Origin: Onthophagus taurus
Taxonomy: Eukaryota; Arthropoda; Insecta; Coleoptera; Scarabaeidae
Assembly: GCF_036711975.1 (NCBI RefSeq)
Contig: NC_091972.1
Span: 17,179,001-17,243,000, forward strand
Direction of reading: 5' to 3'
DNA: 64,000 bases
The translations under genes and the position numbers were made by a program. Below, in pieces: positions 13,341 to 54,400 of the stretch. A model generated the notes under the pieces. The model was not told where the DNA came from, did not search any database, and was given only the letters and a program-made list of their open reading frames with translations. The number at the start of each line of letters is the position of its first letter. Position 1 is the stretch's first letter.

Positions 13341-13383
13341 GTGCGACAAATGTTTTGAGCAATTATTGCTCTTCTTCAGGCAC
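13341..13383 (-). ncRNA. Hammerhead-ribozyme-like motif, core-mutated
   Basis: Read on the minus strand: stem I strand GUGC, core CUGAAGA, one extra A, stem II GAGCAA/UUGCUC with a 3-nt loop, then AAAA where GAAA is expected, C-AUUU-G stem III, cleavage triplet GUC, and stem I return GCAC. Stem I (4 of 4) and stem II (6 of 6) are fully paired. The single defect is G12 to A, which should greatly reduce or abolish self-cleavage. Confidence 0.5.
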
Positions 13384-13859
13384 GACTATCAACAACAAAT
13401 GAGAAAAGAATAATTCTTCCTTACCACCAATTGATACGCATCACACCATTTTTATTTATCTCCAAACTTACCCTACCCCCAGGGTAAGCCATGCAAGAAC
13501 TTGGTTTCTAGTAGATTTGGTTGGTTGTGTAGTAACTAAGTTAAGTGGTGTAACTAGCGTTAGATTTTATTCTCCGCTCGAGTCTAGTTTGACAAAGTTA
13601 CCAACATTTTCTCAGTCAGCAGTCTTCACTAATTTCCTTTTTAATTAATTAACAATTCCACTCTCATTGATCTCTCACAGATCTGCAAAGTTTTGTTGTC
13701 TATCAGCTGAGAGTCATTTTCGAAGTAAATTATCTGCGTAGAATCATAGTCCGAGCTCAGAATTGGACCATCATGTCAGGGTTTTGAGATATCTGAGGTT
13801 ATGTACAAGAACTTGCAGCACTATGTTAATATGAATTGGCCTAAGGAGACCCAAACATT

Positions 13860-14460
13860 CTCAAAGATCCATTGATTGCGAAAAAACTGCCCTCGCTGCA
13901 TATCAAATTAGGAATAATGAAGCAGTTCGTAAAGGTGCTTAATAAAAATGGTACTTACAGCCTTATAGATAAATATCTCAACTTGACTGATACCAAAATA
14001 AAAGAAAGGATATTCGTTGAGCCACAGATTCGAGAGTTGATGAAAACTACTGATTTTGAAAATATGATGATTTCGGCTGAAAGAGATGCCTTGACTAGCT
14101 TCAAAGAAGTTGTCAATGGTTTGTTAGGCAATAATAAAGCTGCTAATTATAAGGTGGTATGCTAAAAGACTTCAAAAAATTTGGTTATAACATGAGCGCG
14201 AAGTTGCAGTATTTGCAGTCTCCTGGTTGGTTTCCTGGCAATTTAGGTATAAGCAAAAGAGATTCCATAAAAGTTAAATACAATAAAAATTCGGACTGGA
14301 ATGCCCCCTGCATCTCACAGTACTGATCCATATGCTGGGTTTTAAAATGGCCATAACTTATAATGGAAAAATCGTACAGTACTATTCGAGAGCGCATTTT
14401 GAAGGGCAAGGAAAGTACTATATGATGAAATAGATAAAATACAGCAAAATAATATTGTGC
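13860..14460 (+). mobile_element. Relic of a multicopy arthropod transposon protein (LPSLHIKLGIMKQFVK family)
   Basis: An open frame from 13,872 reads PSLHIKLGIMKQFVKVLNKNG, KIKERIFVEPQIRELMKTTDF and ALTSFKEVVNGLLGNNKAANY up to a stop at 14,163. It continues in other frames (LKDFKKFGYNMSAKLQYL; RAHFEGQGKYYMM) to about 14,430. I recognise this as a family found in many copies in arthropod genomes, probably transposon-encoded; I cannot name its superfamily. A second relic of the family lies at 36,590-37,160 on the other strand. Confidence 0.6.
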
Positions 14461-15100
14461 GTATCACATAACTTCAAAAGCAGCCAAAAAAGCCATTTAA
14501 TAATCCCAAATATTTCAAAATGCTGACGTGAAAAATACAAAACGAGAAAAAGATCTATTTTAGATCTTTTACAGTACATTTATTAACAGAGTTAGTAATT
14601 GCCCATTAATTGATTTAAACTCTATAGATATAGAATCCAAATTGAAATCATACAAAAAAAAAGTTTGTCCATTACTTGGCAGAGTAATTTAAATAACTTA
14701 TGACGAAGTATTACGTTCGAAATCTCATGATTAATTGTTCCATAACATCAAATGTGATATTTTTGTGAAATTTTTTTTAGCATCTTCTCGAAATAGAATA
14801 AGTAATCCCCCATTTATCAATAACTTGTATGCTAATATTCGTTACTTTTACATTATAACTTTAATTTCTTTTTGCACTGTTTCAATTTATTTAAAGAAAA
14901 TAAATTACACAACAGAACTGACCCAAAACATAGATTATTATTGAATTCTATTTATAATAGAACCGTTTTATGACGTTAAATTGAACAATTTTAATTTTTA
15001 CGGACTTTTGTATTATTATATTTCCTTTTTTTTTATAATTATTTTTTTAAATTTTTTTTGTGGATAAAAATAAAATTTAAAATTAGCGCGTTAAAAAGTG
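14461..15100. other. No gene recognised; AT-rich DNA
   Basis: Stop-dense and strongly AT-rich. It forms the left border of the GC-richer island that follows. Confidence 0.5.
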
Positions 15101-16690
15101 TGCCATCTGGTTTGTTTACAGCAAACTAATAACAGCCGCTCACAGAATCGGGTCGCTTGCATTTTGACGTAAACGAGGGGAGTTGGGTAGAAATTGTTTT
15201 TAATAAATTTCAAAATTTAATGTAATAACATAAGTAAAACTAGTTAAAATCGAATTTGTAGTGTATTTAAGTGTTGGGTGTAATGAAATAAAGTAATTTT
15301 AAAAATGGGATCATGAATAGTAAAGCGTTAGTTTGGGTAACCGGGCCGTACCATTAGAATGGGCTCGTCCAAACAAGCTTCTGATATTTTCGAGCAGGCA
15401 GTCGCCAATCGGTCATTGGACAGGGAGGTTGTCAACAGAATGTGTCAGATTTTTACTTTGATGAATTTTAGTGTAAAGTCGATTTTTTTACGCGAAAAGT
15501 GTCCCGTCTCGAGAGCGCACCGCGGCGGACCCGCCGCAGTTGGAAAATTCGAAAGTGCCGCACGCCCAGGACGTTTATGAGGTAACTGACATATTTTTAA
15601 GTCCTAATTGCCGACCGTCCCGCGATCTGCCCCCCGTAAACACCCGGGGCCCTAGTTTTCCCTATTTTCGACGTACTGCGAAGAAGTCGTCATCGTGGTT
15701 TTCGCCGAGTCGCGCTCACCTAAAAATCTACCTGTTCCAAATTTAGTCATTGTTCTAACCAGGTAGGGGGTCGCAAGAAACGATCTTGCCGATTTGTTTT
15801 TTATTCGGGGAGGAACGGTTTTTATTCGGCATCGATAAAGAAAAAAAACGGTGCCCCTCGATTCCGACGTTTTTAACGTAGCTGGTGTTTGTAATATTTA
15901 GCGACGTTGCGGATGCTTGACCTGGCAACGGTGCAAAGCATGTTATAAAAGATACCGAGATTGTGTTGTTGTAAACTTGGCAACGTCGCTTTGTGTTTGG
16001 TGTGGTAGAAACCTTTTTTTTTTGTTGATTTATTATATAAAAATCGTTTTTTAATTCATATTTATTTAAAAAAAAATTCTTTGTCGCGTTGCGTTGTTTT
16101 AAAATTTATCGAAAATTTATTTTAATCCAAATAAAATAAATGAATAAAGACAAAACAACAAAGAAAAACAAAAGATTTTTTAAAAATCATGGTGGTTAAA
16201 ATCATGATCAGGCGTACCGTGTATAGTAATTGTAAGTACGGTATAGGAATTGTGCGTTATACACGTCGTTGTATCATCTCTGTTGCCTTGACTATCTCCG
16301 TCTCCTACTATTGTCCTATCGATCTGACTACGTCCAATGAGGAGCTGGATTTTGCGATCGCGGGAGCGGCGTTGTCAGACTTGGTGTAGTGCGCAACGAC
16401 ACACTCTGACAAAGGTAATGGTGGCTGCGTATGCTTACCGCCTGGTTAGAGTGAGATAGGTTCCGCGTTAAACGAACGAGCGAAAAGGATCGAAATACAA
16501 GGAGCGGGATTTGAGGCGGCGTTGTCGGTTCGTTCGACGTTTACGAATGAGGCCCGTACTGAGCTGTGTGTCTGTCGCGTCTCCTTTAAGAAAACCGGGA
16601 CGACGATTGTGCGCTGGGCTTTGATAGCTTTTGGTTCTATATATATATTTTTTGTTTCGTTTTGGTTTGGTTCACCCTTTCGAGTTTCGA
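15100..16690. promoter_or_regulatory. GC-richer, repeat-free island; candidate distal promoter / 5' non-coding exons
   Basis: Unlike its surroundings, this stretch has many CpG dinucleotides (dense at 15,490-15,720, 15,860-16,000 and 16,200-16,630), no transposon motif and a purine/pyrimidine texture typical of promoters and first exons. A good donor (GAG|GTAACT) lies near 15,581. The first Sin3A coding exon at 25,436 starts at a splice acceptor, so at least one 5' exon exists upstream. This island is one candidate for it. Small open frames here (15,359-15,580; 16,189-16,389; 16,522-16,857) match nothing I know. Confidence 0.35.
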
Positions 16691-17429
16691 AGTTGTATCT
16701 ATTATGGTTATTGTTGGTTGTTGTAAGTTGGGTTGGGTTTGGTTTGGTTTTTTTGGGAGGAGGAAAAGGTGGAAAAAGGTGGCCATCTTGGCGGTTCCGC
16801 CTGAATTTAGACGTAGTTAGAATGTGTAACGAAGTTGAGTTACTTTTTTTTTATTGACAGTTTTTGTTGGCAAGGTTGATTATTTACCTACCAGTTTTTT
16901 GTGATGCGGTTTATTCTAGATTTTAGTTTTAAAATTTAAGAAAGTTTAAGAAATTTCACAACAAAAATCAAGAATGTTAATAATTGTTTAGTTTATCATT
17001 TAGATATTAGCATATCTTAGTTTTAAGGATACTTTATAATCATTCGCCGCAGTGGTTCCCAAACTATTTTTATTGGCAGCGCCTTTTTCAGTTAAAATAT
17101 TTTTATTAACTAAAAGGATGATTATTCGTAAGTAAGAGTTAAAAATAAATAAACTTTCTTTATGGTCACCTCATTTCATTTTTAACCTTGATTTTTGCTA
17201 TACATTCGAAAACACAAAAAATGGTGTTAAAATTGAAATCCAAAATTCTTTCAATTCCAAATTTTGCATTCAAACTTATCAAGTCTTCTTGTGCAGAAAT
17301 AAATTTAGACGTAGTACTTAAATGCATCTTGAATTCAAGCATACTTATCAAGTTTTTCATTTTGATAGATCACGAAGCCTTGCACATGAAGTTAGAGATG
17401 TGTTTGGAGGAGGTATTGTTATAGAAAGG

Positions 17430-17890
17430 TATAAATGGGTATTTTCAGGTGTCATTTGGTGACAATAAAACTTATTTAATAGCTTGCAGGATCCCTTGCG
17501 CTTGATAATCTCTGCTAGGCGCTTTTACATAGATTTTACCAGCTTTGATGTTTCTTCCTTCAGACGTCCTTCAGCATTGCTTTTGAAGTTCTGTCATGCT
17601 GCTGAAACTTATCTTAGAAAATCACCTTTTCCCAGAAATCTAGCGGCTTATTTATGTGTTCATTGGCAAAAGCAATTCATTTCTGTCAATTTGATGACTG
17701 ATAGCCAGTTTGCTTCAGAATTTTGCACACAGTATCACTACAAATGGTTTTCTGACATGTTTCCTGGATGTTTTTTGCCATTTTGGAAGGCGTAAGTTTT
17801 AGATTTTGCTGCACTTTTTAATGATGTGGCGTTTTTCTCTTAGTTGGCTTAGACGGGCATCCTGAAAGCCGTTTCGAAGCAGTCGATTTA
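17430..17890 (-). mobile_element. Tc1-like transposase relic
   Basis: Minus-strand frames contain ANEHINKPLDFWEKVIF (the run-up to the first catalytic Asp in Tc1 transposases), DTVCKILKQTGYQSSN and a C-terminal RLAEIIKRKGSCKLF. These are in the expected order but broken by several stops. It lies within the first unit of the 1.23-kb duplication. Confidence 0.6.
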
Positions 17891-18672
17891 TAATTTTTAA
17901 TAACTCTGGATTATAGAATGAGTTCTACTACTTCGTTATTGTTGGTTGTTGTAAGTTGGGTTTGTTTTTTTTTGGAAGGAGGAAAAGGTGGAAAAAGGTG
18001 GCCACCTTGGCAGTTCTGCCTGAATTTAGACATAGTTAGAATGTGTAACGAAGTTGAGTTACTTTTTTTTTATTGACAGTTTTTGTTGGCAAGGTTGATT
18101 ATTTAGTTTTTTTGTGACGGTTTATTCTAGATTTTAAAAATTTAAGAAATTTCACAACAAAAATCAAGAATGTTAATAATTGTTTAGTTTATCATTTAGA
18201 TATTAACATATCTTAGTTTTAAGATATACCTTTTTTTAGTTAAAATATTTTTATTTCGCCATACCCTAACTAAAAGGATGATTATTCGTAAGTAAGAGTT
18301 AAAAATAAACTTTCTTTATGGTCACCCTCATTTCATTTTTAACCTTGATTTTTGCTATACATTTGCTTTTTATTACAGCAATCGCCGATAACGCAGTTTC
18401 GCACAAACACATTAAAAATTGTGTTAAAATCAGCTGAACCTTAAGATTTAGAAGGGTATTTTTCATTGAAATCCAAAATTCTTTCAATTCCTAATGTTGC
18501 ATTCAAACTTATCACAACTCTTCTTGTGCAGCAATAAGTTTAGATGGAGTACTTAAATCAAGCATACTTATCAAACTTTTCATTTTGATTGATCACGAAG
18601 CCTTGCACATGAAGTTAGAGATGTGTTTGGAGGAGGTATTGTTATAAATAGGTATAAATGGCTATTTTCAGG

Positions 18673-19630
18673 TCTCGAAAAATACAAGAGATTTATGGCT
18701 GTGTAATCAGGTTGTTCTGACATGCACATTTTCTCCACCATTATCATTGCTTAAAACTTGCTCTTGTTGTAATTCATCCCTTTAAAAGTCACAAAATAAG
18801 ATTTGTTGTACAGTTTTCTTGAAATCAGCAGCGTACCGTAGTGAGTTATAAACATGGTCTAAAGTTCCGTTAGTTCGCAATTCTTCAACAGTGTTTATTA
18901 TTCTTTCTTGTAATTGTTGAATGGTGATAATTTCTACTTAATATACTAAATTTTTTAATGTACCCCACAAAAAAAGTCTAGTGAGTGAGGATACCTTGCA
19001 TTAAAATGGTCATTTAACCAGACAACAACTCTTCTGGCTGTTTATGGATATGCACCACATGTTGGTTCCAAAATATCTCCCAGCTGTGCCAACATATTAT
19101 CCATGATATTTTCCACTATGTTTTCCAATAGATTTAGATAGCCGTCTGAATTTAATCTGTGATCGATGAACACAGATATGTTTCTATTGAAGATAGCACT
19201 CCAAACATTTACACTAAACCTTTACTGCGAAGCCTTGACTCTCTACTGAGTACAGTGATTGTTATGCACATTATTGACACCATCTCTTGTAAAAGTTGCT
19301 TCGTCAGACCAAACAATTAAATTAAAAAAATTTGGATTTTGCCTATGCTGTTGTAAGAATCATTCACAAAATTGAACCCTTATTCCTTGGTCACCTGGTT
19401 GCAAATTTTGCACTAGCTGATGGTGAAGACTTGGACAAAGTCCAAGTCTTCTGGTAACTCTTCTTATGCTTATCGAAGATTCATCAGTAATTCCATCAAT
19501 AAGGACTTCCTATGTCTGTGCATTGGTGCAAACACGTGGACCTTTTCCATTTCCATTGCAGAAACCATAAACAAAAATAATGATGAACATATGAAACATG
19601 CATCAGAAAAAGTTAACGTACATTGTACAT
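18673..19630 (-). mobile_element. Mariner-superfamily DDE transposase relic
   Basis: Minus-strand frames read WSDEATFTRDGVNNVHNNH (about 19,310-19,255, holding the first catalytic Asp), then FSVNVWSAIFNRN and DGYLNLLENIVENIMDNML. Stops interrupt it. These blocks match the intact-frame element at 26,755-27,924 and the relic at 62,480-62,770, so three copies of one family are present. It interrupts the second unit of the tandem duplication. Confidence 0.7.
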
Positions 19631-19984
19631 AAAAGTTCATCTGGTGACAATAAAACTTATAACTTATTTATCCCTTGCGCTTGATAATCTCTGCTAGGCG
19701 CTTTGGCATAGATTTATAATTTTTAATAACTCTGGATTATAGAATGAGTACTACTACTTCAGCAATTTCGAAAAGCCCAAATATGTGCTCCTGTTTTTTA
19801 CTAAATTTTGTTCGAAGCGAAATAGGGAAAATCCCGTACTTTATGTTGTACGTTAATTGTTTCTGTAGTGGCGATCGCACAATTTTTGAATATTTATCGA
19901 TAAATCCATTGGCGCCATAGTAAATATGTTACAATCATATTTAAAGGATTAATTAATTTTGTGACTCGATAATTACCTTAAAAA

Positions 19985-20059
19985 AAATTCTTACGATTTT
20001 TAGTATTCGTAGACAAAGCAGTTTTCTTTGTCTACGAATACTAAAAATCGTAAGAATTT
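19985..20059. repeat. Perfect 34-bp inverted repeat with 7-nt loop
   Basis: Left arm 19,985-20,018 and right arm 20,026-20,059 are exact reverse complements, separated by CAGTTTT. No mismatch in 34 bp suggests recent origin, for example by template switching, or selection. It could form a stable RNA hairpin, but unlike a typical pre-miRNA it has no bulges. Confidence 0.95.
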
Positions 20060-22650: not shown

Positions 22651-22659
22651 ATAAAAAAT

Positions 22660-25449: not shown

Positions 25450-25455
25450 ATTGAA

Positions 25456-28400
25456 ATGAAACGTCTGCGCGTGGATGAAACAGTGCAGGAAGGCAGTGGT
25501 CCACCGTTATCTGGTAACAACTTATATCGCTCATCGATACCGAACACAACATCGGCTATAGCCTATTCAGGTGCCGGAACAATAAAAGTGGTTGGAAGCG
25601 AAGGCATGCAGTCTAGTTTGTACCCTCCGACCCCGCCAGTAAGTTACGGTGTGATGCCGACGGCGGCCGTTCCGCACTCTGGCAAGGGTCAGACAATCCA
25701 GCCGCTCTCAGTGGGAGGCCACGCTGCTCAAATAAGGAACAAGGGCGCTTCGCCTCCTTCAGCCGTTCCCCAAGTACCGGTACAAGGCGGACATCAAGGG
25801 CCGGCCCAGCAACCGACGCCGCCGTCACAACAGCAGCAAGGGCAGCAGCAATCACCCGGCAGTAATTTTCAAAGACTCAAAGTCGAGGACGCGCTATCGT
25901 ACCTTGACTCGGTCAAATATAAATTTGGCGATAAGCCGCAGGTTTACAACGATTTTCTGGATATTATGAAAGAATTTAAGAATCAATCCATTGACACGCC
26001 GGGTGTTATCCAACGAGTATCGAACCTCTTCAACGGATTCCCCGATTTAATAGACGGTTTCAACACGTTTTTGCCGCCTGGATATAAAATTGATGTGCAA
26101 AAAAACGATCGCGGCTACGCTTTTCAAGTGTCTGTGAGTGTCCCTAGACCTACTGGTACCATGGTTTCTGAGCCTGTTCAAAAAACTGCTATGATACTAA
26201 CAGGTTCAGGAATTATCCATAGCAATATACCGAATCCGGGAGGACAGCAACCAGTTTCCGGACCTGTATCCTCGAACGCCGCCCTCCCGGCACATTCCCA
26301 GCCCTTGTCACTGTCCTCACAGCACGTTTCCTCTATTCCTCCCCAGGCTCCCCCACATTCCAATCCCGTTTTACAACAGCAACACCACGCGACCGCTGGA
26401 GCTCCGTCTGCTGTTTACGGAAACGCCGTCACTCCTACTCTACAATCAGCAGCCACCCAGCAACCCCACCATCTCAATTTAAACAGCAATGGCAACAATT
26501 CAACACCTTCTGTGCAACAACAGCATCATCATCACCACCATCACCATCATCATCAATCCCAACAGCAACCTCATCATCATAACAACACGTTGCAATTTTC
26601 TGCCGCGCAAGCTGCTGTCAATCAAGCTCTACAAGGTGGACATACCGAAGCACCCCAAAATCAACCTGTTGAATTTAATCATGCCATCAATTATGTTAAT
26701 AAAATTAAGGTAAGCTAAATGTTGCTCTTTAGTATACAATTAAAACATTATATACTGGGTGATTTATTAGCTCATCATCAAACTTTGACATATGATAATT
26801 AATCCAATTAAAAAAATGTTAATGAATTGAATTTAAAATGAATTTACGAAATTAGAACACTTTAAAGTTTTAATTTTTATATCATAATTAACTACATTTT
26901 TTTTAAAACACAAATATTACAAATATTGTTCAAAATAGCCTCCCTCTGCTCGAATACATGCTTCACAACGACGAATTAAAGAGCTCTTCAGCCAAATTAA
27001 AATGTCTGGTTGATTTCTTATTTCAGTAGCAGCGATTTGTATTCTGTTTAATAATTGTTGTCGTGTGTTAATTTGCACTTGATACACAATTTGTTTCATT
27101 TCACCACCCCATAAGTAGAAATCCAATGGATTAAGGTCAGGGGATCTAGGTGGCCAAGCAAATGGACCATTATTACCAATCCACTTGTTTGGAAAATATT
27201 GGTTTAACCACTCGACAACTACTCTTTCGCGATAAGGTGGGGCACCATCGTGCTGGTACCACATATTTTGAATTACATTAAGAGGTATATCTTCAAGTAA
27301 ATCAAAAAGTGTATTGTTCAAAAAAAATCTGTAATTTACAGCGTTCAAACGTCCATCAAGTACATGCACACCTAGTAAATTGTTGTTAAATATTCCACCC
27401 CATACGTTGATGCTGAAACGTTGTTGAAATTTCCTTGGTCTAATCGCATGCGGATTTTGTTCATTATAGTAATTATCAATGACAGCATTAATTACAGCTT
27501 CTTCGTCCTCTACATTAACTACATGCGGTCGAATAGCTTTTGCTAGAGCAAGATTACCTGTTTCTCGAAGTCTTCTGAAAGAATCGCTAAAAACTGAATA
27601 ATATGGCAAATGACGCTGTGGAAATCTTTCTTGATATTCTTGTACTGAAATTATATCAGCATACTTTTCAGTGCTATAAGCGTACATTTTGAGGTTCTTC
27701 TTGTATATAACAATTAAACCTTACAGCAAACTGACATATTACAATGACAACTTTGTTTTTGTTGAATGTTTGATTTTACTGACTATTAATAAATTCGCTA
27801 CAGAAAACTTTAAAGTGTTATAATTTCGTAAATAAATAGGACATATGTTCATTAACATTCTTGTTTGGTAATTGGATTAGCTATCATATGTCAAAGTTTG
27901 AGGGTGAGCTAATAAATCACCCTGTATAGTAACAAAAAACTGTATTTAGAGTTTATTATATTTAGTATTTCCTGAGTTTAAATACGTAATTAAATGACCT
28001 TGAACAAAAACATTTTATTGTGTTTCTTCCAATTGGTTTATTACTTCATGAAATCATAAAAATATATAATCTTAATGGTTAGGGAAGAATTTTTTATTTT
28101 TTAGATATTTGATTTTAGGCAACTCCAAGATACTTTTAAAATATTATTAGTATTAAATTTTGTTTTCAGAATCGTTTTCAAGGTCAACCAGATAAATATA
28201 AAAGATTTTTGGAAATATTGCACACATATCAGAAAGAGCAAAGAACCTTAAAAGAGTCCTCCCAAGGTGTGGGTGGTGGAAAACATCTAACAGAACAAGA
28301 AGTTTACAGTCAAGTAGCAAAACTTTTTGAGAATCAAAGCGATCTTTTAGCGGAGTTTGGTCAATTTTTACCGGACGCAACGAGTCACATAAACCCGCCC

Positions 28401-31400
28401 GCGATGGCAGATCATCAACAGAATAGCTTTAAAAAGCAGCCGCTAAAACCATATGGTCACCATAGCGATCGTATCATCGATCGTATTATACCCCATCATA
28501 AACCGAGCCATCTTTCTTCAAACCAATTGAAAAGATCGCCGCCTTATCCAAATTTATTAAGCAGAGACGCTCCTTTACCGAAGAAACACAAACTCTCATC
28601 GTCGTGTAGAGATGTTACAATCGCCGAAGCTGGCAAATATTGCACATTAAACGATTACGCTTTCTTTGATAAAGTCCGAAAAGCCGTTCGTTCGCAAGAT
28701 GTTTACAACAACTTTTTACGATGTTTAGTGATTTTCAATCAAGAGATCGTTTCGAAAAGTGAACTTGTCCAACTTGTCACGCCGTTTTTATCGAAATTTC
28801 CTGAATTAATGAAATGGTTTAGAGATTTCGTTGGTCAAACGGACGTCGAAAACATACCTTATAATGTTACAAGAACGGAAAGGCCTGTAGGAGAACATAC
28901 ATTGGACATTGATTATTCTACTGCCAAACGTTTAGGTACGAGTTATTGCGTAATTCCACCGTCCCAGGAAGGTTTGAAATTCTCGGGTCGAACGCAGTTA
29001 TGTCACGAAGTGTTAAACAATCAGTGGGTGTCGTTTCCGTCTTGGGCTGAAGACAATTCTTTTGTTGGATCGCGAAAAAATCAATACGAAGAATACATGT
29101 ATAGGTGTGAAGATGAACGATTCGAATTGGACGTTGTTATTGAAACGAACGCTTCAACGATTAGAGTTTTAGAAGGAGTGTCTAAAAAACTTAGTCGAAT
29201 GAGCCCTGAAGAAATTGCAAAATACCGTCTTGATGATTGTTTGGGGGGACATTCGCCAATATTACATCAAAGGGCTTTAAGACGTATTTATGGGGACAAA
29301 GCACAAGATATTATTGACGGTTTAAAACGGAGTCCTGGCGTAGCTGTGCCCGTAGTTTTAAGGCGATTGAAGGCGAAAGAAGAGGAATGGAGGGAAGCGC
29401 AAAAGGGATTTAATAAAATTTGGAGAGATCAAAACGAGAAATATTATTTGAAAAGCTTGGATTATCAGGGCATCAACTTTAAACAGAACGACGTTAAAGC
29501 GCTTCGATCAAAAAATCTTTTTAACGAAATTGAAACGTTGTTTGAAGAGGTAAATTAATTCAATTTTAAACAATTTTGTTTATTTATTAGATTTTTTTTC
29601 CTTAGCGAAATGAACAAAACGACGAGAGTTCGTGTAAACCAATTGTTGGTCCCCATTTGGTGTTTCATTATCGAGATAGGACAATCCTTGATGATGCAGC
29701 TAATTTGTTAATTCACCATGTTAAGCGGCAAACGGGAATTCAGAAGGGGGAGAAACGGAGGATTAAACATATTTTACGCCAGTTTGTGCCTGATTTGTTC
29801 TTCCATCCACGACAGCAACTTAGTGATGATGAAAGAGAAGAAGACGGTAAGTTTATTTTAATATTTGATTCTTATTTGATTTTCAATTTCTTTTTGCGTT
29901 TAGATGATGATAAGGAAGATGGCGATGAAAGTCCTAGAGGATCAGTTGGAAATAATGAGAAACGCAATAGTCCAGGAAAATCTCCAGGATGCGCGGATGG
30001 TGATATAATCTTTTCCAACATTGATATTAAAGAAGAACAATTGCCTTTACATGCACAAACTGATGATCCTGTAAGTAAATGATAATGGTTTTTATCGCAT
30101 CATTTGATCTAAGCAAGTTTCGTTAAATTAATTTTCTTAGAAATTTGTACAAGACATGATGCAAAATTAATAAATGCAGGCTAGAGTGAAGGGTTTATTG
30201 ATTTATGATTTTCTCTTCTCATTCACCTGCAACAGTTTAATGTTAAACGTTTGTTTTGTATATTTAATAAATTTCGTGTGTGTATTAACGTAAAAATACG
30301 AATATTAAATGTTAAATTCAGAATTTTACGCAACAGTTATTATTTAAATTTTAATTTCAATGTGACCAATCCTAAAAAGATAAAATTCAGATATCAGAAT
30401 ACTCCAATTGCTAATTTAATTGAGAGCATGGTATTATAAATATTGCACGTTAATAAGAGAATATAATAATGGGAAAGTAAAACACAAATGATAAATCTTT
30501 TTGTGAAAGGAGAAATATGTCACGATAATAATCTCTATCTAATCTTTTCTCTGATTTGTTGTTTAACTTTTTGAGGTATGCTAATAAACTTAGAGGCATA
30601 AAAATTTAAAATTTTAAAGCAGTGTGTTAATTACTCTTTATTAATGGTGGAACTTTATTCTACTTAACACCAATTTAATTTTTTGAAAATTAAAAATTGA
30701 ATTGGTTGTTATGTGATAAGTGGTTAATAAAAGAAAATAATCTACAATTACTTTCATTATAGTTTTAATTTTTTATGCAGTTAAGAATACTAAAGAAGTT
30801 TCTGCAACATTTTTGTTTATACAGGGTGAATTATAAAAAGTATTGAATCTCATCAATTGAGACGCGTGATTGAATGCAAATTCAAAGTAACGATTGAAAA
30901 AACAAGGAGTTAATTAATGTTTTGAAGAAAGCAAAATGGTAACACTAAATCATAGAATAAGTGTCTACTCAAACATTGAGGAAATGTCCCAGAAAATGCC
31001 CTATATAAGAAGAATCATATTTTATGTCAGAGTTAAAACCTGCCTCACCAAAACAAATCAATTACAGGAATAAATATTTCAAGAAATTTGGAATATTAAA
31101 CTCAATATCAGAATGAAAGACTTTATACAAGAGGAGAAAATGGACAAAAATAAACTTTTCTTCCTTCCAAAAACTATTATCAGAGATAAGCTTTACACCA
31201 ATGCTTAGCGACAATCAAAACAAAATTTCTAGTATTTTTTGAAACATTTAATTATTAATGTTATCACACTCATCCTAAGATGTACCCTTTAAAAGATATC
31301 ATTAAAATCTAGATAAACAATCATCACAAGTTTCTCCTGTAATGTTATGTTTACACTGTCTGGTATTGGGGTTGCATGTTTTTGAGTATCCATTACAGTC

Positions 31401-37400: not shown

Positions 37401-40400
37401 AATGAAAATGAAATGAAATAAAAACAAATTAAAAAAAAATATTAAAGTCCTCTAGCTGCTAAACTAAGCAATTTGTATATAGATAAGTTGAGTTAAATCA
37501 TCATATTTTTGCTCAAGGTACTTGTGGTCTTCCATAGTACACATCATTTTTGGACACCTGTATAACAACACTGACCTGACATAACCTTGATCATTCTTTG
37601 ACGCAATTTTTGGTTCAAGTTATTATTATTGCTACCCTCTCGTCACAACGATCTATAAGATCGATTGTAACTTAACTTTTCCAAATGTTTATTGTAAATC
37701 TAGGTCCTTGATGAACCTTAGTATTACTCAAAGGTCTTGTTATTTCATATCACTAGGTGTTAGGTGAACTTTCTGGCGACACATTCACACAGTACATGTT
37801 CAGCGGTCTTTGACTCGTCGTTGTAAAGTCGACAAGTTTGACCCTCAGCTTGTCCAATGTTGAAGAGGTGGTACTTTACGTAGGGCCAGTCAGGAGACCT
37901 GAGAGCGACTTTAGATCCTCTTCGCAGAGGCATAAAACCTCTTTTGTTTTCTTTTGGGACGAAATTATACTTTTCGCCTATCTGTATCCTGGAAGTTCTT
38001 TCCAGTGCAAGACTACCTTTGAGGAGACCTCCTTATTTATTACCTGTTTTAAGTGTGGTTTTTTTGTAGTCCACAGCCAGGCTTGCGTCAAATAAAGGGC
38101 GTCCTAGCTACATCTTTGCACCTTCAGCTTGTCCAATATTGAAGAGGTGGTACTTTAGTGGCATAGGGCCTGTCAGGAAACCAGCGAGCGACTTTAGCTT
38201 CTCTTGCTGAGGCATAAAACCTCTTTGGTTTTCTTTTGCGTTTTTTATCTGTATCCTGAAAGTTCTTTGCAGTACAAGACTACCTTTGAGGAGACCTTCC
38301 ATCTATTGAGTTTTTTTAATAGTCTACAGCCAGGTTTGGGTCCAATAAAGGGCGTCCTGGCTGCATCTTAGACCAGTTTGTCCACCTTTTTAGTGTCTTT
38401 AACGTCTTCGTGACCTGGAACCCACCATAGAGTAACTTCATTGTAAGTTGTTACAGAAGAATGATTTCATTGTTAGAATAGTTGCGGGAGCTGTTTCAAT
38501 TCTACGGTTAATCTCTTTACCTGGATTTAGTTGTTCCGTGAAATAGCGTCCAAGATATCTGAATTGGAAAACTCTCTCATTGTTTTGTTGGTACATGTGT
38601 ACAGAGTGTTAATTAATTATCGTGACGTCATCTTTGCAAGTATGCAACCAATATCACAGTATAGGTATTGCAATACGCGATTTGCGTATTTGGTTGCATA
38701 CTTGCAATGATGACGGTGGGTACGATAATTAATTAACACAGTGTAGGGAAGTATCATCGTGCGGTTGGCGATTGAATATCATAAATTTTGTCATAGTAAC
38801 ATTCATTTTTAGAACTTTTTCTTGTTCTGTCACATTTACATCCAAATAACCACCATTTTTTGTGTTAAAATCATCAGATTTAGGTATTTTTCCTTTTTTT
38901 AAGTTGGCAATCTTATATGAATATGATTTTAGGATTAATTATAAATGTTTTTTTTTATAAAAACTTATTTCTATCTGCTTTACTTTTTGAAGTACAACAT
39001 TTTTTGTGTCATAATCGTCATATTTAGGTAATTTTTGCTTTTATCCATACTAAGTTGGCAAAATTGATCTATGGATTAAAACCAATTTTTGAATATGATT
39101 TTTAGGTTCTTTATTAATTTTTTTTTATGTAAAAAAATATTTCTATCTGCTTTACTTTTTGACCTAGACCATTTTTTGTGTTAAAATCATCAGATTTAGG
39201 TATTTTTCCTTTTTAACCACATTAAGTTGGCGATCTTAATCGGAGAGTTAAAACTTATTGTTGAATATGATTTTAGGATTAATTATAAATGTTTTTTATA
39301 TAAAAACTTATTGCTAGCCGCTCTACTTTTTGAACTACAACATTTTTTGTGTTAAAATCATCAGATTTAGGTATTTTTCCTTTTTAACCACATTAAGTTG
39401 GCGATCTTAATCGGAGAGTTAAAACTTATTGTTGAATATGATTTTAGGATTAATTATAAATGTTTTTTATATAAAAACATATTTCTATCTGCTTTACTTT
39501 TTGACCTAGACCATTTTTTGTGTTAAAATCATCAGATTTAGGTAATTTTTGCTTTTGTCTCTACTGAGTTGGCAAAATTGATCTCTGAATTAAAATCAAT
39601 TTTTGATTATGAATTTAGGTTCATTATAAATGTTTTTTAATATAAAAACTTATTTTTATCTGCTTTTATTTATTTCTACCGAATTGTGATGGTGAAAATA
39701 GGTTATTTCTTTCGAAATAACTAGCAGTTCAGATTTTTATAATCTTTGATAAGATCGGTAGCAGAGAAATGGGCCTATAGCTTCCTCTGTCCAGCGGATC
39801 ACCCTTCTTGAAAATGGGTACCACAAGTGCCATTTTAAGAACATCAGGAAAACAATGCTCCTCCAAACAGATATTAATTAATTTAGTGAGTGGAGATACA
39901 ATGATGTTCTTTATACACTTAATAATTCCTACTTCGCTTCTTATGGTTTCCTCCTTCGCACAGAACAACTTTAATTTGGTTCATTTTTATGTAAAATGCA
40001 CCGTTTTCGAAATAATCGCTTGTCTCACATTAAATGGACCATCCTGTATATCTCTGCTCTTGTTTTAGTATCCTGATGGTTGTTTTGTGGTTCCATTATA
40101 TATTTTTGGTCTTGTGTCTCTCCATATCATAGTAAAGTGTTGTAAAGTGTTCTTTCACATCTCTTTTCTGATTTTGAAGTTTTTTTCTCCTTTGTTGGTT
40201 CTTTAACCTCTGGTGTATAGTAGGCTGTTCTTATTATTCCACTAATGTTTACTTTGCGCTTTCCTATTCATATCCAACCATTACTATATTAAACTTTAAT
40301 TTGTTCCAGATTTTTATCATCTTCTTCTATGTTATGAGTGGAAGAGGCGTGATGTTGCAATCTCTCTCGCTACAGATCTTTTACATTTTTCCTCTGCTAT

Positions 40401-43130: not shown

Positions 43131-43576
43131 CAGGGTGAGTCAGAAAGAATGGGAAATCCGAATACCGGAGACACTAGACACCAAAATATGACGATTTAAC
43201 CTAACTTGTCTTATACAAATGTCGGTGGTTTTTAATACAGAGGTTGTTGAAAGTTAAATTTTTATTTCGAAATTTCTTGATAATTTTGAAGGTTTTTGTA
43301 CTATTAACATAAAATTTGGTAGTTAGATGTTTTCGAGCATGAGAAATACGAATTTGATATTTGTTTTGTGATTACTCGTAGAGGGCGCTAGATACACACT
43401 GTACGTTTGAGATATCAAGTCATGACTATTTTGTCAGTTGAGGTATGGTGAATTAAAACCAGAATTAAGTTTTAAAAATTCCTATAAAATCCATTTCTTG
43501 GAATATGAGTTTGACAATTTCCCAAAGTGTTAATAAGAGCGAAGTTATGAGAATTATCCATGTTGTAAGTAAAATG

Positions 43577-44062
43577 AAATTTGAATATAAAAATAAAACA
43601 CAATTTATGAACCTTACACTTGCAGAGATTATTTAATTTATATCGGAACCGGTTTCGAAGTTTATAACTTCATCTTCAGCCGAAAATGTCAGAAAGTGAA
43701 GCCAACAGGTATAATCATTTGAAATTTGAAATGCTGAAAGTTTTTGAAATGTTGAAATATTTTTAATATTTTAACAGCCAGAATATAAAATATGTGTCGT
43801 TAAAAGTTAAAATTCAAAATGGAGGAGACATTAAAAAGCGTGGTGCGTTATAACAAAATTACAATGAAATGAATCGAAAATGATGGTTAAATATAAAATT
43901 CCTTGAACAATTATAGCAAATGAGGTATTAAAGGTTAGATGTGACCATTTTGGCGGAGCGAAAAGAGAGACTTGAAATCTCTCTTCTCACCGGCTCCGAT
44001 ATAAATTAAATAATCTCTGCAAGTGTAAGGTTCATAAATTGTGTTTTATTTTCATATTCAAA
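43577..44062. mobile_element. Foldback element (486 bp) with ~75-bp inverted repeats and one hammerhead motif
   Basis: The arms 'tttgaatat(a/g)aaaataaaac' through 'atttatatcgga(a/g)ccgg' are nearly perfect inverted copies. Just inside the left arm lies a hammerhead-like core on the minus strand. At the same place in the right arm there is a different AGAGAGA/TCTCTCT hairpin instead. It is inserted in the 370-bp tandem repeat. Confidence 0.85.
43643..43683 (-). ncRNA. Hammerhead ribozyme (type I), candidate
   Basis: On the minus strand: UCGG, CUGAAGA, extra U, stem II GAAGUU/AACUUC with a 3-nt loop, GAAA, C-CG-G stem III, cleavage triplet GUU, CCGA. Stem I pairs 4 of 4 and stem II 6 of 6, and every core base is present. 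Predicted self-cleavage is after the last U of GUU (plus-strand coordinate 43,647). Stem III is only A-U plus C-G around two bases, so a dimeric form may be the active one. Confidence 0.7.
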
Positions 44063-45028
44063 GTTAATAAGAGTGTCCTCTTTCCAATGAACCAACCCGT
44101 TTTGAAAAGTAACTTTTAGTTTTTGAGAAAACAATGTTTGAAGTTTTGATAAAATTTTCGATTTTGCAATTTATAATAAAATTATAAATTTTAAAATAGA
44201 TAATATTCAAAATTCGCTATAAAATTAATTTCTTGAAGGATCCTTGTGGAAATATCACCAATTATTAATTAAACTATCCTCTTCTTAATGCAACAAGCCG
44301 TTTTGAAAAATCACTTTTAGTTCTTGAGAAATAAATTTTTGAATAATCGACAATTTTTACGAATTTTGCAATTTTCGCCGATTATGTTTTAAAAATTCGT
44401 ATAAAATCCAGTTCTTGGAATATGAGTATGAAAATTTCCCAAAGTGTTAATAAAAGTGTCTTTTTTCCAATGAACCAACAAGTTTTGAAAAATAACTTTT
44501 AGTTTTTGAGAAAATAATATTTGAAGTTTTGATAAAATTTTCGATATTGCAGTAATTTTCATCGATAACTTTCAAAATGCGCTATAAAATTAATTTCTTG
44601 AAGGATCCTTGTGGAAATATCACCAATTATTAATTAAAGTACCCTCTTTTTAATGCAATAAGCCGTTTTGAAAAATTACTTTCAGTTTTTGAGGAATAAA
44701 TTTTTGAAATGATCGACAATTTTTTCGAATTTTGCAATTTTCGCTGATAAAGTTTTAAAAATTCATATAAAATCGATTTCTTGGAATATAAGTATGAAGA
44801 CTTCCCAAAGTGTTAATAAAAGTGTCCTCTTTCCAATTAACCAATCCGTTTTGAAAAGTAACTTTTAGTTTTTGAGAAAACAATAATTTGAAGGTTTGTT
44901 AAAATTATCGATGAAAATTGCAACATCAAAAATTGTCCCACATAAAGGACAGTTCAAGTAGATAGTGGTTTCGTTACTATGGTTACCGCATTCATAACTA
45001 TATTGCGAGTTGTAATTATTCATTATCG

Positions 45029-45698
45029 TACCCGACGTCATCATTGCAAGTATGCAACCAATACCACAACATTGGTATTGCAATACGCGATTAGCGTATT
45101 CAGATATACTCAGTGTGATATTGGTTGCATACTTGCAATGATAACATTGGGTACGATCAAGGTTTGTAAAGCGTATTGTACCAGGTTGGCCAGACTCAAC
45201 CTTTTCAATGAACGAAAATATTCCCCCCTTAGATGCCCTCATCGTGACGTCACCAGATCCAGCCGTAATACACAGTAATACGATTTGTTTTTTTCATTGT
45301 TATTTCGGTTATTTTATATAATAAAATAGTTTTTTTTTGTTTATTACTGGTTTTTATTGTTGAACATTTATAATTAGTGTTAAGAAACTTTCTAATAATT
45401 TCAATACCAAGGTAATTATTTACAGATAAACCATGATTTATTATAACCCCATATCAAAATTTGTAATTTTAGATGCCCGTTTCATGTGCAATTAAAAATT
45501 GTCGTTCGAATTATGTTGTATCAACAGTTATAGGTTTAAATATGTATATCGTTTTATTTGAATTAACTTTTTAAATGAAAAGTATGAATCGTTAAAAAAA
45601 ATCAAATGTGTTTAAAGGAAAAATCAATAAAATTAAACAAATGTTGAATAAAAACAATACGCTTTACAAACCTTGGGGTACGATAATTAATTAACACA
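45029..45698. mobile_element. Composite foldback elements related to the 38,606 MITE
   Basis: 45,029-45,159 has arms sharing 'tgcaagtatgcaaccaata' and its complement, with 'atcgtaccc' ends. From 45,147 a second inverted pair, 'aaggtttgtaaagcgtattg' (45,158-45,178) and its complement (45,656-45,676), encloses about 480 bp and ends in 'ggtacgataattaattaaca'. This suggests one member nested beside or inside another. Confidence 0.7.
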
Positions 45699-47639: not shown

Positions 47640-48479
47640 TACTTTTACTTGAAAATTAATTAAAAATGTTGTATATTAAAGAGAAAGCTCGGCGAATGTG
47701 AAATAAAATAGAATATTGATAAAATAAGCAAATTTTGCTATAGAAACTAAATATAAATTTAGTTCGTAACACATCTAAAAGATGGCGGTGAAATTAACGA
47801 AATTAATTTTAATAATTTATTTATAAAAAGAAACACCGTCTAATTTAAATAAACGGATAAAATACTAATTTTGTTTAAAAAAATAATAAAATTAATGTTA
47901 CAAAACATTTTTTATTCTAACTTGATCGATATTCCCGATATAGCGCAATTAAAAATTGATCATGTTATTTTATATGAGCTATACATAAATAGCGTATTAA
48001 CGAACGTATCCATTACACGATTTTTGACATTTTTAAACATACAAATGACAGAAAATGATTTGACGTCAGTGCAGTAAAACTGTAAGAAATTTGTAAAAGC
48101 GAAGATGTAATTTCAAAAAGAATATAATACGTATTTATCTCGGACTGACTCTCGACCGGATTAACATTTCCTTCCGATATTTATGTGACACCGCGAAATA
48201 TCGTTTTGTCAGGTGAGCATAGAACAAATCAAAAACACAATTTTTTTTAATCGGGCGCTTTTCATCATCGGGACGTCCTCTTTTTTTCATGTTTTGTGTC
48301 TTATCAGTGTCATTGGGGATTCGCCACGAAAGTTATTAAAATTTACGTAACGATAACCGTGCGTTTTTCACGGTGGGATTCGGTTTTTCCACGTAAAATT
48401 ATTCGATTTGTAGGTTATGTTTACTTTCGCTTGTTAAAAAATTAATTTCACATTTTTATGCTTTATCATTGTAGCGTAA
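47640..48479. promoter_or_regulatory. Shared upstream region of CFAP45 (-) and the USP gene (+), including the USP 5' UTR exon
   Basis: An 840-bp transposon-free gap between divergent starts. 'aagatggcgg' at 47,778-47,787 matches the YY1-type AAGATGGCGGC motif. CpG-containing sequence at 48,140-48,400 probably includes the USP first exon. An acceptor AG at 48,472-48,473 precedes the coding start, so a 5' intron is likely. Which motif drives which gene is unknown. Confidence 0.5.
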
Positions 48480-51400
48480 ATGTCCTGCAAAGTTGCGTAC
48501 TCGCAAACGTCATGTCCACACCTGAGGACCACCACTGATATTCCATTACATGAATTACTAAAACATGCCGAGGTAAGTCAATAAAAAATAAATTTAGAAT
48601 GAAATTTAATTAAAGTATAATACACCATAAAATTTTACTGGTTAATATTGTTTATTTATTGCTTGTTTTTGCCTTTAATTGCACAATAAAATAATTGGTT
48701 ATTTTTTCATTTAATTTATTAGAAAATCCAATGTGCGGATTGTGAATGTACGGGGCCCAACCTGTGGATATGTTTACAACATGATTGTTTGAAGATTGGA
48801 TGTTCTGAACAGTCAAATGACCACAACACTTTACATAATGCGGTAAGATTAATTAAGTTTTAATCAATTTATATGAATCATTTTATTTTTATTGAGAAAA
48901 AACCTGCAAATAATTACATATAGGTAGGCTTCTAAAGAAGTTTCTAGAAAGGGTTAGAAGCTTCAATGTGACTCTGAAAAACCACCATAAACTCGCATAG
49001 GGAAATTTAATTAAAGGTATTTCCTGATTTCTTGTAGATTCTAGCATTATGGTATCTTTCACTCCTGCAAAAAACGTCCTTTAAGAATGTCTTTGCAAAT
49101 ATCAAAGTTATAATTCACCTCTATATGATCTCCTATCTGAGCAAGGTTTGTACACAGGGTCGCTTATATCTATGGAAATGGTCAGTTATCTATTAAATTA
49201 AGATAGCTAGCAAAAAATGTTAAGATACAAATTAAGTATACAGGGTCAGTCAAAACGTTATAACGAGACAAAGTTACGTATTCTTTAATGGAACAGTCTG
49301 TATATTATTCCATATTTCAGTTCATCTCGAAATTCTACCCAAAATTCATGTAAATTCAATACAACTTTGTTTCGTCATAACTTTTTGACTGACCCTGTAT
49401 ACTTAATTTGTCTGTATTGTAATAGATTTAAAAAAACATTAAAACTTTTGTATCTTAACATTTTTTGCTAGCTATCTTACTTTAAGAGATAACAGACCGT
49501 TTTCCATACATATCAGCGACCTGTATAAGAGTCATTACGTCATTGGCGACAAATAATACAGGGAAATAATTCAAATTTTTAAAATAATTGATGTAATTGA
49601 ATTACTTTAATATATTTAGTGTGGTATATAATTAAGTGCGGTAGTAAAACGGAATTATTTTCCGTTTTCAACTTAATTTTTGATATAAATTCACTTATAA
49701 AATAATTGAGGGAAAGTAAAGTACAAATTGATTTATGTTATACTTGAGAAGACGTTTCAACTCCCACTAAACATGACCTTGAGGTTGCGCGCGCAATCCG
49801 TCCCCACTTACGTCACGAGAATATATAGATTTTTTTAAATGGAACACCTTGTATATTTTATCATATTATGAATACAGCTAAATTTGTTTATACAACCGTA
49901 TATGTTACTATTTCACAACGTTCATTGTTCCTGAGATCTTTTTAAAAACTATGTAAAAACAACATTTTTTCCCATTTTGCTTGAAACTACGCCAGACAAT
50001 AGTCAAAGCCAGTAGGTAGATGATAGTATCCAAAGATATTAGATACACTATACAGCGTGTTTATAAAGCTTAGTTACTTTTGATGTTTTTCAAATGGCTT
50101 TTTCTTAAGTTTTTTAAATGGAACATCCTGTGCTGATTGAATTGCCCAGCAAGTTTCCTTTAATTAATGATAAGTATGTCATAAGTCAAACTTTATTAGT
50201 TTTCCTGATATTTAGAATTTAAAGAAAAATGTGTAATAAAATGTCATTATTGTACTTAACAAAGTGACAGAATGTAACTGTAAACTATAAACAATTACTA
50301 AACGTTGCTCAACAAGTAGGTATTAATTTAATTAGTACTTAGAAGTTCAAAATGCCGCCAATTCCTCTTCTACAACCATTAATGCGCTGTATAAAAGATC
50401 TTGAGGTATCTCTTAACATGTGCCTCTTCTTTTCTCTAAAGTCGTAAATTATATGGCAGAACAATTGCATATTTTATTACTTGCATCTGTTTAAATCTCA
50501 TAAAGTACCAAGTCAAGTTAAAATTTGGTATATGGCAGCAAAATTATTTTACATTATAAAATATTAATCAAATAATAAAAGGAAGAACAAAAAATCTGAT
50601 AAAAGTAGACAGAATATAATATTAAGTACAATAACGCATATTTTATTACACATTCTGTAAATTCTAAATATCAGGAAAACTACTAAAGTTAGATATATGA
50701 CATACTTATCATTAATTAAAGGTAACTTGATAGGCAATTCAACTAGCACACAATATACAGAGTGTTTCATTTAAAAATCTTCTGAAAAAGGCATTTGAAA
50801 AACATCAAAAGTAACTAAGCTTTATGAACACGCTGTATAGCGTATCTAATATCTCTGGATACTATCATCTACCTACTGGCTTTGACTATTATCTGACATA
50901 GTTTCAAGGCAAAATTAGAAAAAATGTTGTTTTTACATCGTTTTTAAAGAGATCCTGCAATGGACACATTTTGGAAATACAATTGAATATCTCAGGAACT
51001 ATGACCGTTATGAATTAGTAACATATACGGTTGTATAAACAAATTTAATTGTATTCATAATATGATAAAATATACAGGATGTTACATTTAAAAACATCTA
51101 TATTCTCCGTTACACCTAAATGGAACCACCTGTATAACTGAAAATAATTTTACGTAATAGAAAGTGGTGAGTCAAACATTTTGCATAAAATATTTTTTTC
51201 CTTCTCAAACGGTTTAGCAACTATCGTCCGCCAGGATACTAATAACTCACCTGTATATAAATCTTGCTTAAATCTCAGGCTTGTTCCGCCGACCTCAAGC
51301 TTCCCGGGGTCCAGCAACTTCCATCTTCGACCTCTCCTGCTTTTCGTTCATTCCTCAATCGAAATTGGACTCTGCCAGAGCTGATGTATAGGCACTAATT

Positions 51401-54400
51401 CATTACATTCTCTTCACCAATTTACAGAATGAAGTCAAGGTCGGTTTGCGGCTGAGATACACAACCTCAATGTAGTTTTATTTTTATGGATTTTGATGTA
51501 TTTTCTTCACTAATTTAGAAACTCAAGCCAAGGTCGCTTTGCGGCACACTATTTTCATCGTAGTTTATCTTTATGGAAGGGATAAAATTCTCCATATTTC
51601 TCAATAAAATATATAAAAATATAGAAAAAGTAAAAACTTTTTATGAGAAATAATTAAATATTAAAATTTATTATTAAAGAGCAGACATGTTTCGAAACGA
51701 TTGTTTCATCTTCAGTACTTTAAAATATATGCAAAATGATGGAAAAAATACAAAAATATAAATAACTTGGGAATACCTTAGTAAATTTTAAAAAAAAAAT
51801 TTTAAAAAATTTTTAAACAACTTGTAAACAAGTTTATTTCCAATATTTCTAAATGTTTTATTTTCATTTTTAACAAAAAGAAAACCTATATAGAAATAAT
51901 TTCATTTTTTAAGAAAATTTGTTATAAAAATTTACTAAGATATTCCCAATTTATTTATATTTTTGTATTTTTTCCATCATTTTGCATATATTTTAAAGTA
52001 CTGAAGATGAAACAATCGTTTCGAAACATGTCTGCTCTTTAATAATAAATTTTAATATTTAATTATTTCTCACAAAAAGTTCTTACTTTTTCTATATTTT
52101 TATTTATCTTTATGGGTTTTGATGTATTCTCTTCAATAATTTCATCACATTTTAACTTTACGATTTCTGATGCGTTTTCTTTATCGGTTGAGAGAATAAA
52201 GCCGAGGCACACTATCTTCGTCATAGTTTATATTTATGGGTTTAAATGCACTAATTTAAAATTGAAAACTGAAGACGAGGTTGCTTTCCGGCCGAGGCAC
52301 TACCTCCATTCCACTTTAATGTTACAGGTTTCTATGCAGTTTCTTAATAGCTTTAGAGAATAAACTCCAGATCGCTTCGCGGCCGAGACACACAATCTTC
52401 ATTGTAGTTTATCTTTATAGGTTTTGATATATTCTCTTTACCGATTTAAAAACCAAAGAGGAAGTCGCATTACCTCTGCCACATTTTAACTTAACGGGTT
52501 CTAATGCAGCTTCTTTATCGTTTGAATATTCTTATTTGTTGTAGTAGTCACTTCTTGATGAAACATTTTTATAACTAATGGTAGTTTATAAAACGCCTTG
52601 GCTATTACACTGTGTATTTATTAGATTAAATCTGACAATTGCTTTGGTTATTACACCGTTCTCAAAGTTTATCTTAAAACTAACCCAAGTAAGCACATGT
52701 TTTCCAATCTAGCTCTTAAGTTGGGTGGTTGGAATGGTTGCAAAATGTTTATTACGGTGTTAATAAAGGGTCTGTTGGCAAAATCTAATTGTGTGTTGGT
52801 GATTGTTTGGTTTTGCTTTTTAAATTTTTTAATTTCTAGATTTCTAACATCTAAGCGTTTACTTTTCGTTACATTATGTATTAACCTAGGGTTGTCCATA
52901 TCAGGAAAGTTATTATTTTCTATGCAGTGTTCCGCAATACCAGTACTTCTTACATTGTGCAGTACTGATCTTTTATGTTAAGTGATTCGTTTTTTGATGC
53001 TTCTCCCGCTTTGTCCTATATAGACAGCGTCACAATCTTTTCATTTAATGCTATATACTCCAGATTAGTCCAGTTTATTTAATTTATCTTATCTCAACAT
53101 TGTACTGAAATTTGTTTAATTTACCCAGACTGTTTCAATATTTAATTGTTTTAGTATTTTGTTATACAGGGTGTTTCTGTAAGTTGTGGTATAATTTTAA
53201 TCAGAAATACTAGAGTCAAAATGATGACGATTCGTGTAAAAATTTTTGATCTAAACCCATAAATAGCTATGATATGGATCTTCAAGTTAAGAGATCCGAA
53301 AACTGTAAAAATGTTCAGAGAACTTGTTCTATTATAAATACGCATACTTTTTCATAAAAATTTTACAATTTTAACATTTTTACAGTTTTCAATTTTAAAT
53401 TGTTCAATTCTAATTTGTTTTTGTCCAACTTTATTTTATTGTGATAGTGTTTTACATTGTTACATCTTTACATATTGGAATGTTCATCACTTTAATTTTT
53501 TGACATTGCTTCTGAGGATGACTTACTAGTCGAAACATGTAAAGCTACAAAATAAATACAATAATCAGTATACATAAGTACAAAGAAAACATCTTTATTT
53601 TATTTTTATTGTTATTATTATTTTTAAGATTTGAATGTCTTGGATACTTATCCAAGAGTTAATCTGTAAAGTCCGTGGTTAGAGTAACCTTTTTAGCTTA
53701 AGGAACAAAACATCGCAATACCTACGTCAGATAATGAAGTCCATACTCATTCAGTTATAGTTCCTCAATGGCTTCAAGTTTATCCTTCGTTTGAATTTGT
53801 TTTTATTTTCGATTCCATCAAGGCCATGATGAGCCTTATTCAAACAGGAAGTCGGCTTGTTTACGTTTTTATGCCAAGCATTCTCTCTGATTATTAAAAA
53901 TTCAATAGTTATTTAGTTTAATTTAACATTCGATCAAATTGTGATAAAATCTTATAACATTCGTTTAAATTTAAGTGGAAATGTAAATTTCTATTTACTC
54001 GAAAAAAAATTTTTCTTTTCACAGTTTTTTCATAAATATAGAAAGTTCATTTCACTTTTTAATTAATTTTTCCATTCATTTCAAACCTAACCTTCATCAT
54101 GTAAATTGATCTTTTCGTGTAATTTGTTTTAAACGCATTCTAATATTGTCTTTTTTTTAAATTTTGTAGTCAAATCCATCACATTGCGTTCACATGAACT
54201 TAACAACCCATAGAATTTGGTGTTATGAATGCAAACGCGAAGTATTTTTAAGATCTTCTCGAAATGGCGAAACAAACATCGAAGGTAATGGAGATCAAGA
54301 TCCTAAAAATCACCACCAATTCGCCTCGCAAACCGATGATTTCCGTTGGAGGATTGGCAATGGTGGGTTTGATCGTGTCGTTGGTATGGGGGGTGATACC

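Follow-up and report, generated by a model that had tools for sequence, protein, structure and literature searches.

Penelope-like elements (PLEs) reportedly carry minimal, dimer-type hammerhead ribozymes, thousands of which Cervera and de la Pena (2014) and Lunse, Weinberg and Breaker (2017) are said to have found dispersed in animal genomes. We analysed a 64,000-nt stretch of the genome of Onthophagus taurus (NC_091972.1, positions 17,179,001 to 17,243,000; hereafter the window), in which an initial annotation had pointed out five hammerhead motifs at four loci. These motifs are further cases of the already known PLE-hammerhead system, and we are highly confident that they are minimal type I hammerhead ribozymes of PLEs, carried in the flanking pseudo-long terminal repeats (pLTRs). 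According to passages of a 2020 review, PLE hammerheads usually have no non-conserved part of helix III and may self-cleave via dimers, and their in vivo activity and role are a mystery (PMC7761336). Passages of a further paper call them minimal versions without helix III (PMC6155905).

The insertions made by PLEs have been described in Adineta vaga, where passages of the Penelope paper report that an inverted pLTR lies adjacent, that some copies have 8-10 bp target duplications, that a 31-bp tail may be present on one side, and that head-to-head repeats with palindromic junctions and solo pLTR pairs occur (PMC3846280).

A descriptor scan for type I hammerheads on both strands of the window, with 0-2 extra bases allowed before stem II and AAAA allowed besides GAAA in the core, returned exactly five hammerhead-type motifs. 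They are the five that had been annotated, and they far exceed the counts from decoy and Markov controls. Four have the complete CUGANGA and GAAA core. They lie at 43643-43683 (minus strand, in the insertion called foldback B below; stem I UCGG/CCGA, extra U, stem II of 6 bp, stem III ACCGGU, cleavage triplet GUU), at 51680-51719 (minus strand, left arm of foldback A; stem I AGUA/UGCU with one U-G pair, extra U, stem III ACAUGU, triplet GUC), at 51997-52036 (plus strand, right arm of foldback A; identical to the preceding motif) and at 53508-53545 (plus strand; stem I GCUU/AAGC, CUGAGGA, extra U, stem III ACAUGU, triplet GUA). The fifth, at 13341-13383 (minus strand; stem I GUGC/GCAC, stem III ACAUUUGU), has a damaged core with AAAA for GAAA. 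As the 51.7- and 52.0-kb copies are identical and form the two arms of one insertion, the independent loci are three with an intact core and one with a damaged core. The annotated claim of a shared type I hammerhead core is hence correct for three loci (four motifs) and incorrect for the 13-kb locus.

Stem I is 4 bp long in all five motifs, and the scan reproduced the annotated count of 16 pairs formed out of 16 over the four loci, one of them G-U. Stem III is a perfect palindrome, ACAUGU or ACCGGU, and is imperfect only in the 13-kb motif. This palindrome is too short for a stable monomer hairpin, as in dimer-acting ribozymes, and such a very short stem III, suited to dimers, is that of a minimal PLE hammerhead. 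All five motifs have a single extra base between A9 and stem II (U in four, A in one), and no motif was found in the window when the descriptor disallowed it. The extra base, the palindromic stem III and a PLE endonuclease relic near three of the five copies had been missed by the initial annotation.

One alternative is that the motifs arose by chance from AT-rich inverted repeats. A loose search with the two core pieces alone agrees with this, its outcome lying within chance (8 found, 4.26 expected). The full descriptor with a GAAA core finds 4 motifs in the window. All 800 Markov-2 simulations together contained 2, and 600 letter-permuted decoy cores on the real window averaged 0.007 (maximum 1). 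When AAAA was also allowed, 5 were observed against a mean of 0.05 and a maximum of 2 in 150 simulations. In the host assembly (290.8 Mb, 33 contigs) the pattern CTGANGATG-N(6-16)-CGAAACNNGT has 3,220 matches and the same pattern read backwards has 1, which refutes a chance origin; we give it practically no probability. The annotated view that the motifs are not inverted-repeat noise is borne out by the decoy counts and by the genome-wide counts alike.

A covariance model trained on the 43-, 52- and 53.5-kb motifs, with the 13-kb motif held out, points to the same fold. This locally built three-locus model does find the fourth locus (E 0.0018), the next-best match having E 0.2. When the three intact-core loci of the window are aligned without reference to structure, each of the 4 stem-I pairs proves to differ at both of its positions. 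A wider set of 24 distinct motifs was drawn from 58 hits in 50 loci, some of which overlap and one of which is the window; in an alignment fitted to the structure model, and for motifs related to one another, 98.2% of pair cells are paired and covariation scores 0.677, compared to 0.195 when shuffled. Stem II has at least 3 bp in 86 of the 100 genome-wide matches listed, and in 63 of 76 distinct loops, compared to a mean of 19.7 and a maximum of 30 with the 3' halves swapped. The stems are thus kept paired despite sequence change, and the compensatory changes proposed earlier are supported by the stem-I pairs of the window, by the score of the 24 motifs and by the stem II swap.

The palindromic stem III is also common genome-wide. 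Among the matches listed, ACNNGT is palindromic in 89 of 100 (57 CCGG, 21 CTAG and 11 CATG), where 25 of 100 would be expected if the two bases were random and the copies independent. The CCGG class makes up 1,458 of the 3,220 genome matches.

Many PLE endonuclease sequences are present in the host genome (150 scored of 2,320 candidates), and the motif recurs beside PLE coding sequence, so that the link to PLEs made by the initial annotation stands. The motif is present in 17 of 20 scanned regions, which had been chosen for PLE or foldback matches. The same motif class is carried by PLEs with stop-to-stop open frames of 812-837 codons (up to 897 codons for some of these copies in the output of the search tool). 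In the tandem array L058 the motif is found every 2,973 bp beside 837-codon frames, while L059 and L061 have head-to-head, outward-pointing motifs. At G000:C1:31636500-31653500, which includes L058 and L059, a PLE tandem array is followed by a head-to-head inverted copy.

Outside the window, 18 of the 29 best endonuclease loci have a same-strand motif, lying 528-835 nt downstream at its nearest; half of these, nine of the 18, belong to one family of near-identical members. The constant offset between motif and endonuclease and the reversed pattern take the place of random genomic regions as controls for this genome-wide link. A 478-codon PLE fragment at L057 lies between outward-pointing motifs that are one stem-I base off the 52-kb motif, and its pLTRs are 81-83% identical to the arms of foldback A. 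At L075 a PLE frame has, on its 3' side, a motif closely related to that at 53.5 kb. A pLTR location is therefore seen for the class in general and also for motifs closely related to those at 52.0 and 53.5 kb. On contig C6, a PLE endonuclease match is followed, after 457 nt and on the same strand, by sequence resembling the hammerhead-side arm of foldback B; the descriptor found no motif in the C6 stretch that was fetched (L083). No PLE endonuclease was found in the viral contigs, prokaryote genomes or phages searched. The pattern matches in viral contigs (1 + 5 stretches) are probably due to chance, and part of L001 looks phage-like.

Within the window, a degenerate PLE GIY-YIG endonuclease region with 5 in-frame stops lies at 52732-53154 on the minus strand. 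In a first profile search PF01541 matched it with E 0.001, below its cut-off; it matches P0001 (PF01541) with E 4.1e-27 and 50% identity, and reached E 1.5e-36 in the host-genome search. The GIY-YIG endonuclease of a PLE insertion is represented here by this relic and is absent from both foldbacks (526 and 523 bp). The motif at 53508-53545 is probably the inverted 5' pLTR of a truncated PLE that includes the relic. An alignment sought by the relic for a 3' pLTR remnant of the 53.5-kb type was not significant (102 of 500 shuffles as good), and no PLE coding sequence was recognised by eye in a six-frame reading near the 13-kb and 43-kb motifs.

The 13-kb copy has only a handful of relatives, all diverged (8 matches, counting the copy). 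Of the five that were fetched, L078, L080 and L081 retain GAAA, so the AAAA of the 13-kb copy looks derived. L080 is altered in the first core piece, L079 has lost GAAA, L082 spans the downstream part only, and L081 has the perfect stem III ACATATGT. From these sequences the AAAA core is best read as decay, and the copy as a remnant of an old repeat family. A stretch that by eye resembles a DDE transposase adjoins the copy.

Three of the five motifs lie in two foldbacks without open reading frames (ORFs). Foldback A is a 526-bp insertion at 51577-52102. Its pLTR arms (51606-51809 and 51907 to the end) are head-to-head inverted and 94% complementary, a one-sided tail occupies about 51577-51605, and exact 13-bp target-site duplications flank it on the plus strand at 51564-51576 (TTTATCTTTATGG) and 52103-52115. 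Foldback B is a 523-bp insertion at 43540-44062, with inverted pLTR arms at 43574-43653 and about 43989-44062, a one-sided tail at about 43540-43573 and exact 11-bp target-site duplications on the plus strand at 43529-43539 (GTTAATAAGAG) and 44063-44073. The tails add about 30-35 nt at one end only of each foldback. With either foldback excised, the joined flanks can be aligned across the junction to a tandem-array unit nearby; for foldback B this alignment, to a 183-bp array unit, is gap-free over 171 nt. Foldback B was inserted into this 183-bp tandem array (higher-order unit 366 bp), which covers 44199-44912 and 43411-43539, and a second tandem array, of 171 bp, is found at 38918-39666.

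Both foldbacks are single target-site-duplicated insertions with the usual inverted ends of PLE insertions. The initial annotation had taken such ORF-less foldbacks to be a less familiar host for hammerheads. This proposal is not supported, since the inverted pLTR, the target duplication and the one-sided tail are as described for PLEs, as far as the passages of the Adineta paper go (PMC3846280). Its wider interpretation stands for the hammerhead type, the compensatory stems and the PLE link, and falls for the unfamiliar host and for an intact core everywhere.

Foldback A has 116 matches in the genome including itself (from 40 scored of 207 candidates) and foldback B has 102 including itself (from 40 scored of 87 candidates). 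The foldbacks might form a non-autonomous mobile family in their own right, comparable to retrozymes but inverted, whose members are copied whole and whose ribozymes are kept by selection. Among the 100 matches listed, 18 of 26 neighbour pairs within 5 kb are head-to-head; ten of the 18 are 80-319 bp apart and the other eight, by eye, >900 bp. The ten close pairs indicate that a short head-to-head pair is common in the 8.2 Mb covered by these matches, and they speak for such a family. The region between the motifs is common in full to foldback A, L008 and L010, and their alignments hardly reach past the foldback, which points the same way. Against such a family, beyond roughly the innermost 35 aligned columns the copies have no arm-specific change in common, the arms of L008 are 100% identical, and the alignment of L018 with L019 over about 2.5 kb is probably a segmental duplication. 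The arm pattern would fit one template per insertion, and equally the copying of a perfect palindrome. We consider a separate family unlikely.

The second arm of foldback B (43989-44062) starts at about the first base of the stem-III palindrome, abutting unrelated DNA, and its start reads ACCGGC where the other arm reads ACCGGT. The inverted junction looks as if it had formed at the ribozyme palindrome. An arm start at this position would fit a palindrome-primed junction, and ORF-less head-to-head elements with two divergent dimer-type hammerheads could be a class mobilised whole by PLE proteins, in which the stem-III palindrome would be both the dimer contact and a self-priming, junction-forming palindrome. 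We hold this idea to be distinctly unlikely, and read the foldbacks as ordinary PLE insertions.

If the motifs are PLE ribozymes, two copies on one tandem-array PLE transcript would pair via the palindromic stem III, exchanging stem-I strands. The resulting double hammerhead would cut after the NUH triplet, and cleavage would free unit-length element RNA for reverse transcription. The window copies are best read as decayed or truncated insertions: the foldbacks as head-to-head pLTR pairs arising in one insertion event, one motif as adjoining a 5'-truncated element, and one old copy as having a broken core. Established directly are the motif with its covarying stems, its recurrence at a constant position next to PLE coding sequence, and the way in which both foldbacks are built as insertions; we infer from them that the motifs may self-cleave.

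For each of the five motifs (four distinct), structure prediction favours the dimer hammerhead fold over a pair of monomers. The fold predicted for a foldback A transcript is a single hairpin (-247.1 kcal/mol, z -34.6) in which the two motifs are paired together. Because so long a hairpin would hide both motifs, cis-dimer cleavage from the foldbacks is unlikely, and the foldback copies probably do not self-cleave as cis dimers.

The extra base before stem II appears compatible with a hammerhead, since one is tolerated in a viroid hammerhead. There an extra A lowers the trans-cleaving rate moderately, and U speeds trans-cleavage 3-4-fold over A, according to passages of that study (PMC3705267). 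In the Anolis PLE the ORF is reported to start at stem II, with G8 preceding the start codon (PMC11167929, in part), which would imply the same extra U there.

Besides the core-only search above, several observations count against hammerhead ribozymes of PLEs. No Rfam hammerhead was found at gathering or E<=10 thresholds in the whole window or in a 2-kb slice. The initial annotation had itself proposed covariance models as the check and background-level scores as telling against it, and on this standard of its own the claim would fail; the Rfam silence was obtained without a positive control from known minimal PLE hammerheads and tests the models, not the fold-defining property. For the 24 motifs, pairs changed on both sides number 7 compared to 5.8 when shuffled, and 107 of 500 shuffles are as high. 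At 11 of the 29 endonuclease loci there is no model match in 1.5 kb on each side, although one of these 11, L043, does have a descriptor match. The dimer hammerhead fold is predicted to be 1.7-5.1 kcal/mol less stable than the best predicted dimer fold, with energies that leave out tertiary and core contacts. The two foldback tails look alike (1 in 1000 shuffle pairs aligns as well), but the sequence compared is AT-rich and takes in part of the arms. Finally, passages on the Anolis PLE ribozyme state that it cleaved only with protein added, that ribozyme mutants left in vitro insertion unaffected and that none of the reads had an end at the putative cleavage site (PMC11167929).

Other repeats were seen in the window. 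A DDE_3/DUF4817-like transposase fragment (26917-27720, minus strand; both matches below Pfam cut-offs) lies within 26751-27928, between 65-bp inverted repeats and between the long frames 25450-26718 and 28140-30082, the latter matching Sin3. At 1-1380 a reverse-transcriptase fragment with a weak match lies in a partial tandem duplication whose copies are spaced about 1.13 kb apart. The best microRNA (miRNA)-like Rfam matches in the window fall on hairpin or foldback repeats; related hairpin elements with sub-threshold Rfam miRNA-precursor matches lie at 38624-38740 and 45011-45157 and are probably foldback elements. Large nested foldbacks at 49823-51103 and 62265-63992 had no hammerhead motif in the scan.

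The catalytic-RNA-like motifs and the foldbacks can thus be explained as one known retroelement system. With 3,220 exact-pattern copies, PLE frames of 812-837 codons and tandem arrays, this 291 Mb genome is a good place to test the role of PLE hammerheads. No paper joining hammerheads with PLE foldbacks was found in searches of an open-licence library, which is weak evidence of absence.

Among known systems, retrozymes (the plant type with LTRs and type III hammerheads and the metazoan non-LTR type with type I) resemble the foldbacks as ORF-less elements with hammerheads. The motifs might belong to canonical metazoan retrozymes, whose small, tandemly repeated units contain type I hammerheads and are expressed as circular RNAs. 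The type I motif lies within ORF-less DNA here, and retrozymes co-occur with PLEs in the animals covered by passages of one study (PMC7229834). However, retrozymes are direct repeats, and most invertebrate ones have a stable helix III according to passages of the 2020 review (PMC7761336), whereas the window copies are inverted and have a minimal stem III. Moreover, no tandem repeat in the window has the motif as its unit, the 183-bp array being the target of foldback B, and the same motif class is found in PLEs of the same genome. Retrozymes are therefore a very improbable source of these motifs.

The plus-strand hammerhead of the viroid CChMVd shares one extra nucleotide between A9 and stem II; it belongs to a viroid, not a retroelement, and the base is A there and mostly U here (PMC3705267, in part). 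Penelope of Adineta vaga is similar in its inverted pLTRs, short target duplications, one-sided tail of about 31 bp, solo pLTR pairs and palindromic junctions. Unlike the 8-10 bp reported there, the target duplications here are 11 and 13 bp, and the passages of that paper make no mention of hammerheads (PMC3846280). The near-constant extra base after A9 sets the motifs apart from the minimal PLE hammerheads as presented in the passages of the literature cited, where it goes unmentioned. Like those hammerheads, the motifs of O. taurus have the type I order, a minimal stem III, a location in pLTRs, thousands of copies and tandem copies suited to double-hammerhead formation.

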